Positions 49,712 through 57,181 of a stretch of DNA of 64,000 nucleotides are shown here, piece after piece. The DNA is taken from assembly GCA_004519485.1 (NCBI GenBank), contig CP038130.1, forward strand, positions 496,001 through 560,000. Reading direction: 5' to 3'. The stretch's first letter is position 1. Every line of letters begins with the position of its first letter. The notes under the pieces are model-generated. The model searched no databases. It was given only the letters and a program-made list of their open reading frames with translations, and was not told where the DNA came from. Source of the DNA: Nannochloropsis oceanica. Lineage: Eukaryota > Sar > Eustigmatophyceae > Eustigmatales > Monodopsidaceae. The position numbers and the translations under genes are program-made.

Positions 49712-52087
49712 ATGACAGGCTACGGTGCTCCATCATCATGTCGCGCTCGACGAAGAACAAGGAAAAGTCTGGCGCCGCTCCTCGTTCTAGGTGTGCTATT
49801 GGTCACCCAGGTCAGAATACCACAGGCCCAAGCGAATACTGGCGTGGGCTACGAAGGTGAGGATGTGAGAAATGTGTAGTCGTGAGCTCCCATGTTGCGT
49901 TTGTGCGTGCATTTTAGGACCGCCAAACTAATATTGTCGACCTCCCCCCTCCTCCCTCCCTCCCTCTCTTTTCTCTTCTCAGAAGATGACGATCGGGACG
50001 AGCTCTCGGTGGAGAGCCTTGCAGGAATGGACAAGCAGATAAGTGTGACACCATGGTACGCGGAGGCCGGCGGGGACGGGCTGGGCAAGGAGCTGGGTGG
50101 GTCAACTCTTTCGCAAGACGATGCGACTGGTGCAAGTTGGGAGGACGACGCAAGCGGCCATCAGCACAGCTACCGTCATCATCCGTTCCTGCCCTTGAAG
50201 TTGCGTGATATTATTGGCTTACTCTTTACGGCGTTAGGGCTCATGATTGCTGCGGGTGGCGGCATTGGTATGTATGGATACAGAGGACTCGCCAAATCGT
50301 ATTTGGCGCGGAAGAGACCGTGAGGGTAGGGAATGGTAAAGACTTGTGTGCTCGCGCTTTCCGTTTCATTTATGTGCTAGTGCCTACCTTGCACGAGCTA
50401 TTCTTTCATCTTGTTTTGTGTCTTGTGTGAATCACATGTGCTTCACTTATCATCGCCTTTTCTTCCTCCTCTTTCTCCTCTTCCTTCTCCCCTCCTTCTA
50501 GGCGGTGGTGGCATCCTCGTTCCCATCTTCATTCTCGTGATGGGCTTCAGCCCTAAATATGCCATCCCTTTGTCGAACGTCACGATCCTGGGCGGGTCGA
50601 TTATGAATATGGTGATGAATGTTTCTAAGCGTCATCCGTCCGCTGACCGACCACTGGTTGACTGGGATTTGATTTTAATCATGGAGCCTCTTACTATTGG
50701 AGGGGCGCTTGCGGGCAGCTTCTTGAACAAGATCCTGCCGGAGTGGCTGCTTGTGGTGGCATTGGTTATATTGTTAAGCTACACTGCGCAAACGACGTTG
50801 AACAAGGGCCTCAAGGTTTATCAGAAAGAGAGCGAGGCCAAAGCCAAGGCAGCGTAAGTATCCGGACTGTTGTGTATGCGCTCGCCTCACGCTACTGCCA
50901 TCTCTCCATTTTTCACTTTCTAGATGGCACACTGTGCTCAATGTAATTCTGGTATCTGATTTGCAGCTGCTTACATCCACCTCCATCTTCCTCATGCCCC
51001 CATTTTCCCCACTCTCTCGTCTCCCCGCTACAACACCTCAAAGCCGACCGGAATCCAAACAACTCAAAGATCTCACCATGGCTGAGAAAGGCGAGGAAGA
51101 AGACGAAGAAAAAACCCTTCTCCTCTCTCCTGACGAGTACGAGAGCCCCGAGGAGAACAGCGCTAAGGCTGAGCTCCAGGTAAGTCTTCTTTTTATCACA
51201 TTTTCTTTTTCCTTGTGTCTCAACCTCATGTCCATCTCGCCCTTTGGGGGCCTCTGTCCTTCTGTACTGTCTTCTTCATGCGCTGTGTAACATGTTTGTC
51301 ATTTTTTTCCTCGTACTTAAACATTTATCTCTGCTCCCTGCCGTCCTTTCCCCCCCCCCTCGCTTAGGCCATCATTGAAGGGGAGAAAGCCACTCCCTGG
51401 GTCAAAGTCCGCTTGCTGGTTTTCTGCTTTGTCGTGGTATTGATCCTCAACGTCTTTAAAGGTGGGGGCTCGTTTCCTTCTCCCTTGGGTGTGGAATGCG
51501 GGAGTTTCGCTTTTTGGTTCTTGACCTGTATGGTGTTTGCCTGGGTGGTGGGGGTGTCGCTGTACGTGCGGGGGGATTTGATTAAAATGTATTATTTGAA
51601 GGCGAAAGTGGGTTATAAATACGCAAAAGGTGACATTGAATGGAATGAGTGGGCAACCATTAAGTATCCATGTGTGTGTTTTTTCGCCGGGTTTTTCGCA
51701 GGCATGTTCGGGGTGGGTGGGGGGATTGTGAAGGGCCCTCTGATGCTTGAAATGGGTGTGGATCCTCGAGTGGCTGCAGCCTCGTCGGCGTGCATGATAT
51801 TGTTTACGTCGTTCACCGCCACGACGAGTTTCTATATCTTCGATTTGTTGATTTACGATTATGCGGTGTGGTTGTTTTTGATTGGCTTTGTGTTTACCTC
51901 CGCTGGGCAGTATGGCCTGACGTATTTGATGAAAAAGTCGAACCGGAATTCTTACATTATATTCTCGATTGGCGCCGTGGTGGGGTTGTCAGCAGTGTTG
52001 ATGGGCCTGCAGAGTGTTATTTCTTTGTTTTCGGGACCGGGGGTCGGAGGTGGGGGAGGAGGTTCGATTTGCGATGCGGTGGAGTAG
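49712..52087 (+). CDS. TauE/SafE-family sulfite/anion exporter
   Basis: TauE/SafE proteins export sulfite, sulfonates or organic anions across a membrane. Five exons (49712-49856, 49983-50267, 50502-50853, 51044-51179, 51368-52087) give 545 residues with consistent phases. Residues about 18-40 form a signal peptide (LLVLGVLLVTQVRIPQAQA). The first TauE half has GGGIGGGGILVPIFILVMGF, then PLSNVTILGGSIMNMVMN and DLILIMEPLTIGGALAGS. A charged acidic loop (EKGEEEDEEKTLLL) separates the second half: GMFGVGGGIVKGPLMLEMGV, ASSACMILFTSFTATTSFYI and GQYGLTYLM. The paired glycine-rich motifs are the family hallmark, and the layout resembles plant At2g25737-like proteins. The fourth acceptor (CCTCAAAG) was chosen on phase; a TTGCAG further 5' does not keep frame. 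Confidence 0.88.
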
Positions 52088-52609: not shown

Positions 52610-55600
52610 CTAGTCCTCCCCCGCCGGAACTTCGTATGCCAATTGCACCGCCTGGTGTGCCGCCAGCTCCTCTGCCGTTAAAAATGAATAGGAAAGCCGT
52701 TCCCTGTACACCTCAATGATACAAACATCTCTCACCATCACCTGCTGCACCTTGCTTGTGCTCTCTGTTTCCATTACCTCCTCTTCTTCCTCCCTCTTTC
52801 TTATATCCTCCTCGTCTGAATCCGACTCCTCTTCGTCGCTACTGCTCTCGCTGGCTGCAGTAGTCCCCTCTTCTCGTCCAGCAACAACATCAAGTACCCA
52901 TGAGGGTAACAATGCCAACGCAGGCACGAGCACTGCCCGCAATGCCGTCTCCCGCCCATGCAGCTTCCCCAAAGCCCACTTTCGCAAACGCGAGCTAATC
53001 GCTTCGTTACAATTGCGTCTGCCACTGTCCTTTTCCTTTTTTCCACTTTCACTTCCGTCCATTTCGGGAGCACTGAACCAAGGCTGCGACGCGAAGACAA
53101 GCACAGCCTGACTATCATTGTATCGGGCTTGCTCTAGCTCTTCCACCACCCAATCCTCCTCCCTCTTCTTGTCCTCCTTTCCTCCCTCCTGCACCACCTT
53201 CCCTGTGACAACCAAACCCCTCATCCCCCCATACCAAAATCCACACCCTCCACCCTCCACCCTTCCTGCTTCTCTTCCCCTACTGCTGCCTGTTACTACA
53301 ACGGGGATCGACTCACTTATGCGTCCAAGAATTTCCCACACTCTCTCTTCCTCCTCTCCGTCCTCCTCCTCCTTCCAGAGCGCCGGCGAAACAACCACCA
53401 ACCGAGGCCTCAACCTGTTTATCCCCAACACAGCCTTCTCTAGCTCCTTCCTCCTCCTCCCCTCCAAACCTACCTGCTGCTCCCCTAACCCACCGCCGAT
53501 GCCGCTCAAACCCCCCAAATATACACAGAAAAAGGGCCCCATGTATTTACTTTGATCTGCCTTCCCCAACCCATACAACTCTTTCCCGCTCCAATCCACA
53601 CGTCCTAGCAAACGTGCCTTGGCTCTCTGGCCAGCGCTGCTGCTGCAGCTGCCGCTGGGAAGAGAAGAACATATTCCTAATTGAGCTAATCGCAATATCC
53701 GTGGCTCTCCCAACCGTCCTTGTCGTTCTAACAGATGGAAGACCACGGCTCTTTCTTCCCCAGACAAGGTAGTCATGCACTCGGTAAAATCGTCGGCTGG
53801 TGGCGTGGTGCTCATGGCTTGAGTCACGCATTGCGCTGCCAACTCTCGCAAGCGGGCTTCGCGTGGGGTTGCTTCCAGTACAATATCTACGTCTGTCTCT
53901 GAGCCTGGAGATGGGGCAAGTGGGAGGCTCCTACTGCTCCCCTCCTTCCCGCCGTTTGTTGCTTTTACTCCTGTTCCTACTCCTGCTACGGCTTCTTTCG
54001 CAGGGGAAGACGAGGAAGAAGAAAAAGAAGAAGAAACAAAGGAAGCAGATGATGGTGACGATGAAAGGGAGGAGAAGAAAAGGTGATCAAGAATGGCGGC
54101 ATGTCCCTGGGCATCGATGTTCGAATGACGAAAAGAGCCCAAACGTTCCTGAGGCTGCTTTCGCAAGAGCCGACCAATCAAATCCCGGGCTAAAGGAGGA
54201 ATTACTGCTGGATATGTCGGGTTGCACCGTCGGGACCGCAGAAAAACAAGATATGGCGACGGGGCCCGAAATGGCGATAACCCCACCAAAAACTGATACA
54301 GGCAACAACCCAAGGCCCAGAGATCTCCTTCCATCAACGTTTCTCGACTTCTGCTTGCCTCAGGGCTCATGTACTCAGGGGTCCCGACAAACTCCGGTCC
54401 GTTCAGATCAGTCTCTTCTGTATCCTTTGCTGAACCAAAATCAATCAACTTCAATCTCCCTTTCGCCGTCAACACCATATTTTCTGGCTTTACGTCCCTG
54501 TGGATGATCCCCCTGCCATGCAAAAAACTCAATCCACAAATTACTTCACGGGCATAAAACCGGGCAAAGCTTCCCGGAACCCCAACGCTCGCCTCCCCCC
54601 CTCCATCAGCCTGCAGTCTTTGCCATACTTCCCCCCCCGGGCAGTATTCCAAAAGCAAATACAAGCATGTGTAATCTTGAAAAGCATGGTAGAGCTCAAT
54701 CACATTCGGATGACGCAGACGAGACAAAATCCGTCGCTCCATGCTTATCTCGTTGGCGACGTTTGGATGCCTCTTTTTCACCCGCTCCACTTGCGATTTC
54801 TCCAAAACCTTGAGCGCGAAATGCTCGCCGGTCTCCCGATGCATTACGTGGAGGATACGCGAAAAGTTTCCTTCTCCTAACGTGCCCAGTGTTTGGAGGT
54901 CGGCGGGCGCGACGCGCTTGCGGGGGTCCTTGGCGGTTTTGATGGATGCAAGCTCCCGTGCACGGGAGTCATTCAGGCTACCTTCCAGAAGGCGAAGTTC
55001 ACGGTTACTGGGCTCTTGGGCAAGGCCTTTGATGATTGCCTGAAATGAGGCAATCAGGGGCAGGAGATAAGACGGATATACGTATTTTTTTTAATTACCA
55101 GCTCCTTGATTTTTTGAGGTGAGGATGTCTTGTGTGTACAGACAGCATAGACGTCCCGGCGTTCTATCACCCCAAGATCAAGCAATCATTAAATGATGGA
55201 TACACCGCATGCATATATTGTTCGAAAGAAAGCTGTTGTTCATAACATTTCCACTTACCTCGTTTGCCGCGCCGTACTTGCCCATCTCCAGGCAGGCCTT
55301 GGCCAAACGGTAATACCCTTTCGAGAATCCAATATCTGCAGGAACCAGCGAAAGGCTTCGGTGTGCATCTGCTGCGGCATCCGCCCACTTCTCTAATTGT
55401 AGGAAGCACGAGGCCCGGTTCGAGAGGTAGAGATAGGCGGTCGTGGGACCATCGGGGTCGAGGGCGAGGGCTTGTGTGTAACAATCCGCGGCTGTCCTGT
55501 AATCCTTTTCCCTGTAGTATTGATTACCCTCCTCCTTCCACTCAATTGCCGTCTTGTCGCTCCGCGGTGGTGGTAGTAGTCTGCTCGGAGCAGGAGGTCC

Positions 55601-55636
55601 TTCTGATGATGACGCCGGTGGTAATGAGGCTGACAT
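52610..55636 (-). CDS. TPR - PDK1-like kinase - CPPED1-like pseudophosphatase fusion
   Basis: Exons 55259-55636 and 52610-55039 join at phase 0 (GAANE-AIIKGLAQ) to 935 residues. Residues about 30-130 carry TPR helices (WKEEGNQYYREKDYRTAADC, YLSNRASCFLQLEKWADAA). The AGC-type kinase runs about 172-450: LGEGNFSRI, FALKVL (Lys203), IIHRDVKPEN, DFGSAKD, FVGTPEYMSPEA, GDLWALGCCLYQFLVG. The SFVGT/DLWALGC pattern is closest to PDK1, which phosphorylates the activation loop of AGC kinases; no PH domain is seen. After a Ser-rich linker, residues about 625-860 follow the CPPED1 metallophosphatase layout (MGPFFCVYLGG, AVLGINRLRPRLVVVSPALW, IPVVVTG, GFWYGG, DWVVEELEQAR, AVLVFASQPWF), but the metal-binding D, GD-x-x-H, GNHD and GH-x-H residues are absent. 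The tail is acidic. Confidence 0.85.
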
Positions 55637-57181
55637 TGGCTTGCTTGCTTTTGCTCGCAGCACGCTGCCTCCTGTTTTTACAAGAGGAGAAAGAAGGTAA
55701 GGATGGTAGCTTCATGAATGTGCTCTTACCCCTTGGTGGATGGCTAGGAGGGCAGGAGGCAGGTTGGGGCGGCGTCGCCTCAAAATTCAAGAATGCCGCC
55801 CATCAGTTGAGAATCATCTCCAAATTCTCAAACTCTACACCCATACCTCACGCACAGGTCGCGGTCATGTACGGTGAGCACATGCAGCAAATCCCATCGG
55901 AGTACGGTTCGCAAGCTGGCATTTTGTCAGCGGTTGTCGAGTCGTTGCCGACCTCAGGTAGGAGCGTGTGCGGCATCAGCAGCACAGGAAAGTCCTCGTC
56001 CGAGGCCACCACTATCGAAGTGTGCTACCACACCTCGCGGCGTTCATTGCTCCAGGCCCTGCAGCTTTCCCAGGTACTGCTGTCTGCCGTCGACAAAACT
56101 ATCCAAACTATCAACGATCCCGAGATGATGCAAGGTAATGGATCCCTGCTCACAGTCGAGGCTATGAAAGCGCGAATGCTCGGGTTCAAAGAAATGGCCC
56201 GCAAGAGCCGGACATTGGAGCAGAGGGCGCTGAACGCACTTGACAATATACGGGCACCGGTAACGCACGAGACCGCGGGAGCTGGATTGCCTGTCTCGGG
56301 GTCGGGTTGGATGTCTCTCACGGAAGTGGGGCTGCTTATCAAGGGGCTTGTGTCCCCCCAACAAACCGAGACTGAATGCGTGCTGCACCGGGAAAATGCC
56401 AAATTTTGAATGAAGACCGAGAGCTTGCAACGCCAGGTTGAATTGCTTTCCTCTTCCTTGAAGGCCGCTGACACCACATCTTCGGCGAGGGCAGCGCAGG
56501 TGGATGTCCCTTCCTGGGTAATACGGGCCACGAAGCAGAATGCCCTTGATAGTGGGGCCAATGACGGCACTGCAAAGATAGTGGCAAAGCTGGGGAGAGA
56601 ATTGGAGGAGAAAGAGGGGTTGCTAGCAGGGTTAAGGACAACGGTGCGCGACGTGGCTGGTGGCCGGTACCCTATTTTGGAGGAGAGGAATGATTTGCGA
56701 GCAAAGATTCTGGTGAGTGTATGTCCACGGGAGGGGAGAGGCTCTTGCGGCATTACTATCAAAGACAACAAGTGAATAGGTATGATCGAAACATTCATTT
56801 GAATTCCACACACAGACACTGCTGCAGTCGCAAGCCCACTTGCTGGAAGACAGGGAGACTTTTGAGGTAAGGGGGAGTCAGCGGGTCTGATCGAACTTTC
56901 GCCCCTGGTTATTAAACTCATCATTTCCTCTGCACTTCTCCCATTCTCATATACAGACACACAATGCTCGCATCGAGAGTCAATTGCGACGCACGGCTGA
57001 TTGTTGCCAGGAGTTGGAAGCTTACGTGCGGTTCCTCGACGCTACTGCAGTGGCGGGGAATGAAGGGCGACGAGAGGGGAGATTTGCTTCCGCCTCTTTC
57101 GCCTTCCTGCCCTCCCATGGTCCATCGCCAGCATGTCGAGGTCGTCAGCCTTTTGGGTGCCCAAGCAGTGTCAATAAATGA
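55624..57181 (+). CDS. Secretory-signal coiled-coil protein with an in-frame TGA
   Basis: I do not recognise a family. Predicted exons 55624-56712, 56816-56866 and 56957-57181 stay in one phase. It starts with a signal-peptide-like MRLTLACLLLLAARCLLFLQ, followed by a globular-looking stretch (VAVMYGEHMQQIPSEYGSQA) and long helices (TVEAMKARMLGFKEMARKSR). At 56407-56409 a TGA interrupts the frame at codon 262; the next codon is ATG and the same frame continues as strong coiled coil (SLQRQVELLSSSLKAAD, AKIVAKLGRELEEKEGLLAG) into the two small exons. Readthrough, a missed intron, a sequence error, or two separate proteins are all possible. The start overlaps the kinase start on the other strand by 13 nt; a later ATG at 55714 would avoid that but lose the signal peptide. 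Confidence 0.55.

Follow-up and report, generated by a model that had tools for sequence, protein, structure and literature searches.

Fusion of TPR repeats, a PDK1-like kinase and a CPPED1-type domain, often without recognizable metal ligands, in Nannochloropsis oceanica and other stramenopiles

Organization of the locus

The window analyzed here, a stretch of 64,000 nucleotides on contig 4 of the genome of the eustigmatophyte stramenopile Nannochloropsis oceanica (29.3 Mb in 32 contigs were searched), carries on its minus strand a gene for a protein in which TPR repeats and a PDK1-like protein kinase are followed by a C-terminal domain of the CPPED1 metallophosphatase type. An initial annotation, made from the sequence alone, had proposed that all these parts belong to a single gene and had named an assignment of the TPR and kinase exons to different genes as the outcome that would speak against it. 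Exon 1 (55259..55636, minus strand), delimited by translation and splice junction, encodes residues 1-126, from the start codon through an N-terminal tail into the TPR domain, of which it covers the larger part, while residues 127-935 and the stop codon stem from exon 2 (52610..55039, minus strand), which was recognized from an open frame of 826 amino acids and its translation. The two are separated by a phase 0 intron of 219 bases (55040..55258, minus strand; GTAAGT...TTTCAG). The spliced product of 935 residues is identical to a GenBank protein (P0002, "agc pdk1 protein kinase [Nannochloropsis oceanica]") that uses the same junction.

As the intron interrupts a TPR unit whose helices run on across it, both exons are part of one gene, and the in-phase splice junction together with the identity with P0002 rules out an artefact of the gene model. 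TPR and kinase are also joined on a single protein in the domain lists of P0134 and P0219, relatives that stem from the MMETSP transcriptomes, and a division into two genes did not appear. With Pfam, the window protein yielded TPR matches in three stretches and a Pkinase match at residues 176-427 (190 bits).

The kinase domain and the TPR region

The kinase domain (54137..54892, minus strand; residues 176-427), identified by Pfam and by alignment with human PDK1 (3qc4), contains both the HRD and the DFG motif. The closest solved kinase is human PDK1 (1.3e-51 over 263 residues), and the next family is PKA (1.7e-42). Relatives were collected by an alignment search, which gave the family considered in the following, i.e., the best 120 of 2,245 profile-search matches, which were themselves drawn from a candidate list of limited length; the C-terminus alone, used as a query for homologues, reached four proteins. 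HRD was read in all 120 listed proteins and a DFG string in 117 of them, the latter count including at least three rows (P0139, P0144 and P0172) in which the first DFG located is non-catalytic. In the alignment with 3qc4, Glu342 faces the activation-loop serine of human PDK1 (Ser241), so that the window protein has no serine at this place. Across the family the position is occupied by glutamate in 89 proteins, asparagine in 21, serine in two, and aspartate and lysine in one each, with six unread. Asparagine was found in 18 named oomycetes, in Mucochytrium (P0219) and in P0175 and P0177.

A PH domain was not matched by Pfam anywhere in the window protein. The PDK1-type PH domain (PF14593) occurs in this genome exclusively on contig 27 (241683-243527), where it follows another PDK1-like kinase that carries a serine at the Ser241 position. 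In its open frame, the kinase part of this contig 27 gene is interspersed with long low-complexity inserts. Because a separate PH-bearing PDK1-like kinase is present, the window gene is a PDK1-like paralogue. A complete kinase with PDK1 as its best solved relative agrees with what had been annotated, while the plain designation "PDK1" is too strong.

The TPR domain (54986..55543, minus strand; residues 32-144, spanning the intron) consists of three stretches matched by TPR_2 and TPR_1. Residues K34, N38, N73, K106 and R110 occupy the positions of a dicarboxylate clamp, according to the K-N, N, K-R pattern of TPR domains that bind the tails of Hsp70 and Hsp90. Among the 81 proteins with a long N-terminus over which these columns were scored, 16 show K-N-N-K-R exactly, and the five columns hold in 78, 74, 78, 79 and 74 proteins once arginine is allowed at the first place. 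One relative, P0126, exhibits an FKBP_C domain (residues 45-129) ahead of TPR, kinase and CPPED1-like domain, an arrangement that recalls co-chaperones of the FKBP51/52 type.

The C-terminal domain resembles CPPED1

A conserved helical block (53672..53878, minus strand; residues 514-582), seen in 10 aligned fusions and helical in the predicted model, connects the kinase with the C-terminal domain (52628..53626, minus strand; residues 598-930). We compared an alignment of four related C-termini with 24 CPPED1 sequences using hhalign, which resulted in a probability of 96.6 and a P value of 6.1e-10 over 167 of 330 columns at 26% identity and confirmed that the segments follow one another in the order typical of CPPED1. 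A CPPED1 hidden Markov model (HMM) recognized 88 of 119 fusion C-termini at E < 1e-3 and none of the 119 reversed or 119 shuffled controls. An HMM built from vertebrate CPPED1 alone retrieved P0002 at 7e-5, and a profile combining intact and part-intact fusions with CPPED1, which includes the helical block common to the fusions, did so with an E value of 3.6e-23, with 0/112 reversed and 0/112 shuffled sequences below 0.1.

When the genome was searched with human CPPED1, two places were found: window positions 53069-53464 and a true, stand-alone CPPED1 gene with several exons and intact metal-ligand motifs on contig 13 (41983-42805). A search of the genome with the C-terminal domain itself revealed a single copy, with the next match at an E value of 0.04, and a sequence search yielded no CPPED1 of solved structure. 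For two predicted structures, all 50 listed VIA-align matches are chains with a metallophosphoesterase fold, headed by Rv0805; an unrelated fold, which would have contradicted the earlier assignment, was not seen. As judged from profiles and models, the C-terminal domain is a degenerate CPPED1-type class III metallophosphoesterase whose predicted fold is retained.

Metal ligands and family distribution

Class III enzymes of this kind are characterized by the motif D-[X]n-GD-[X]n-GNH[E/D]-[X]n-H-[X]n-GHXH (PMC8366450; this and the other papers cited were covered in part, and statements on them refer to the parts covered). The first six ligand positions of P0002 are instead taken by G636, S638, A679, S712, R713 and S777, and its C-terminus includes neither GD nor GNH. 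In fact, all eight aligned ligand positions are altered in the window protein, the last two being less surely aligned. P0003, P0004 and P0005 likewise have zero ligands at the first six aligned positions, and GNH is absent from the C-termini of all four proteins; P0003 and P0004 contain stray GD dipeptides away from the ligand positions, and in P0005 a histidine follows the position of the H motif by one residue. The description of the region as CPPED1-like, with no recognizable metal ligands, is thereby corroborated by profile comparison, models and ligand alignment.

Of the 120 listed relatives, 27 carry the name of an organism or a label for one, and without exception they belong to the stramenopiles: oomycetes (Phytophthora, Peronospora, Pythium, Aphanomyces and others), diatoms (Ditylum, Fistulifera and Epithemia), Tetraparma, a chrysophyte label, Mucochytrium and Nannochloropsis. 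This placement was looked up in three cases and follows the customary classification in the others. Because 93 rows lack an organism label, the fusion may also occur outside the stramenopiles. A private oddity of N. oceanica is ruled out by its presence in many listed relatives, 113 of which possess at least 300 residues C-terminal to the kinase. Among 116 alignable C-termini, all six first ligands are kept in three proteins, five in one, three in two, two in two, one in 27 and none in 81. The fully conserved set occurs in P0130, P0133 and P0144; the latter two also feature GHxH and score above the Pfam Metallophos cut-off, while P0130 stops before GHxH. The expectation that the same fusion would be found in further stramenopiles, in some with intact ligands, was thus confirmed.

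Sequence constraint

Identity between P0002 and P0005 amounts to 210/260 in the kinase, 47/69 in the helical block, 62/126 in the core of the pseudophosphatase and 21/42 in its last strands. It drops to 8/28 in a Ser-rich linker, to 13/41 in an acidic insert and to 0/12 in the insert at 783-803. The acidic insert (52754..52885, minus strand; residues 845-888), rich in Ser, Asp and Glu, lies inside the pseudophosphatase domain and is poorly conserved according to both the alignment and the segment identities. Invariant blocks in P0002-P0005 include GINRLRPRLVVVS and FWYGGMRGLV, and two fold-core motifs are widely maintained in the family (N of AINKL in 112/116, W of FWxGG in 104/116). The inserts drift while the fold is conserved, which is not the pattern of a decaying pseudogene; a recent pseudogene is rejected because the blocks are conserved and the inserts vary across the four sequences compared.

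Neighboring open reading frames

The plus-strand open frame at 51368-52087, which matches TauE/SafE (PF01925), converges with the kinase gene. A long plus-strand frame (55246-56409) lies opposite exon 1 and extends beyond it; it ends with TGA and is directly followed by an in-frame open reading frame at 56410-56775. Pfam gave no match for either tested piece of these two frames, which could represent one gene with an unrecognized intron or be separated by a real stop.

Discussion

Sequence data establish how the protein is built, that this build is widespread, that the kinase motifs are intact and that the metal ligands are missing. We consider it probable (about 0.6) that the gene encodes a fused signaling protein of stramenopile type, composed of TPR repeats, a PDK1-like AGC kinase, a helical linker and a CPPED1-type domain, in which an active kinase is combined with a pseudophosphatase serving in docking or regulation. 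As glutamate occupies the Ser241 position, the kinase would be active without autophosphorylation of its activation loop. Judging from the clamp residues, the TPR domain probably recruits the C-terminal tail of Hsp90 or Hsp70 or keeps the kinase in a chaperone complex. The dead domain, its fold being kept, most likely binds the targets typical of CPPED1-type domains, namely the substrate of the kinase or a partner, or regulates the kinase in cis, and dephosphorylation in N. oceanica would fall to the stand-alone CPPED1, whose ligand motifs are intact. Human CPPED1 is reported to dephosphorylate AKT1 and PAK4 (PMC8366450), an activity that is unlikely for the window domain because the ligands are absent. 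In species with intact ligands, kinase and phosphatase activity may reside in one chain. The phosphatase would have been active at the time of fusion, and the metal site would then have been lost several times, including in the lineage of Nannochloropsis.

A number of observations weigh against this reading. Pfam Metallophos does not match the window protein, the C-terminal region giving just a 9.7-bit acidic-tail match under the cut-off; 31 of 119 fusion C-termini fall short of E < 1e-3 with the CPPED1 HMM; the window domain does not retrieve the CPPED1 gene from its own genome at E values up to 1; Foldseek gave no match below 0.001 for either model; and phmmer found no metallophosphoesterase among solved structures for the window protein. 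The fold assignment is accordingly based on profiles, relatives and VIA-align. The uncertainty about the last two ligand positions arises because the hhalign match stops before the GHxH region. With respect to the TPR domain, the first clamp place is arginine instead of lysine in 52 of 81 rows, and the oomycete gene models have N-termini of merely 6-36 residues; TPR is therefore not universal in the fusion family. For the history of the metal site, gaps in the alignment, which were scored as losses, affect some ligand positions in many rows of diatom type, and the kinase-domain tree, on which P0144 is separate from P0130 and P0133, is a quick one of 73 rows with long branches. Under irreversible loss, this tree requires a minimum of 5, 11 or 16 losses with branches below 95 collapsed, below 80 collapsed or none collapsed, respectively, for 69 scored rows, three of them intact, with gaps taken as losses and the root placed on a long outgroup branch; unconstrained parsimony yields three changes (34 scored rows). 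Repeated loss follows from the assumption that the metal site was never regained, which is reasonable for a site of eight residues.

Three other interpretations deserve attention. That the resemblance to CPPED1 arose by chance on an unrelated fold, or that TPR and kinase exons represent two genes, would be in line with the silence of Pfam, phmmer against the PDB and Foldseek (E < 0.001), and is very improbable and largely refuted: P0133 and P0144 share the kinase type and the helical block and combine them with intact ligands and a Metallophos match over the Pfam cut-off, the reversed and shuffled controls (0/119 each) exclude a chance resemblance, and the intron dividing a TPR unit, with the same junction in P0002, contradicts two genes. 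It is also quite unlikely that the domain is alive, i.e., that it performs a non-canonical hydrolysis or acts as a sensor of nucleotides or phospho-ligands. The walls of the pocket may remain, the top fold match is Rv0805, which acts on small phosphate compounds, and CPPED1 itself has been placed among class III phosphodiesterases (PMC8366450), but P0002-P0005 retain none of the first six ligands and no GNH.

A purely structural leftover, which would serve the folding of the chain or the stability of the kinase and have no partner, seems unlikely, though clearly less so than a living enzyme. Conservation would then reflect packing on the kinase or the helical block; the many different residues that occupy the ligand positions across relatives look as if only folding were selected, and the conserved positions include the fold-core motifs AINKL and FWxGG. 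Against it stand the long region kept behind the kinase in nearly the whole family and the invariant blocks in P0002-P0005, neither of which decisively separates binding from packing. The fusion of an active kinase with a docking or regulatory pseudophosphatase can be extended, at roughly even odds, to a fuller history: a PDK1-like kinase (the writer) and CPPED1 (the eraser) would have been fused early in the stramenopiles, often behind TPR repeats; in a few species both halves would still be apparently alive, and elsewhere the eraser would have died at least five times and yet been retained, for substrate capture or for cis-regulation of an always-on kinase. From the retention of a dead eraser it would follow that these functions, not catalysis, are the useful part.

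The family offers a natural series whose members range from a kinase-phosphatase fusion that looks intact to fully inactive ones; the conversion of an enzyme into a pseudoenzyme probably took place repeatedly within one and the same chain. This opens a way to test why a dead phosphatase is retained. Within a large group of water molds and algae, the family further brings to light a branch of PDK1-like kinases in which a clamp-type TPR domain goes with an acidic residue in the activation loop.

Comparison with known systems

Compared with CPPED1 (CSTP1), the window domain is alike in segment order, predicted fold and the motifs INxL and FWxGG, whereas it is fused behind a kinase, has changed ligand positions and carries an acidic insert before the last strands. 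PDK1 is similar as the closest solved kinase domain; in contrast to it, the window protein lacks a PH domain, has TPR repeats in front and a glutamate at the Ser241 position. Vps29 and GAP50 are metallophosphoesterase folds that serve as scaffolds, and rows for both were among the structure-search matches of one model, with GAP50 also among those of the other. They share with the window domain a fold without known catalysis but belong to other subfamilies and are not fused to a kinase.

Kinase-phosphatase fusions (PMC10925823) and pseudophosphatases are, each for itself, known kinds of protein. In its logic, PHLPP2 comes close: this pseudophosphatase near the PDK1-Akt pathway is derived from an active enzyme, and retained substrate binding or scaffolding has been proposed for it (PMC12002173). 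It differs in being of PPM type with PH and LRR and in a single loss at the base of the metazoans, and a kinase on the same chain is absent from the part of the description covered (PMC12002173). PPM-kinase fusions of oomycetes resemble the window protein as one-chain combinations of kinase and phosphatase in stramenopiles, differ from it by the PPM instead of the CPPED1-type domain, and are treated by their authors as active in both halves (PMC10925823). In the covered part of the Phytophthora infestans kinome study, the phosphatase accessory domains are PhoD and PP2C and not CPPED1-type (PMC3019232), and a CPPED1-type/kinase fusion is not described in the part of PMC2705460 covered. In N. 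oceanica, changes in PDK1 protein under nitrogen stress have been reported, the gene not being specified in the portion of the report covered (PMC12649847). The partly covered literature on PDK1, CPPED1, oomycete kinomes and pseudophosphatases contains no description of this fusion with repeated inactivation. The claim of a new architecture made in the initial annotation requires a qualification: the GenBank name of P0175 already lists a kinase domain together with a calcineurin-like phosphoesterase domain.
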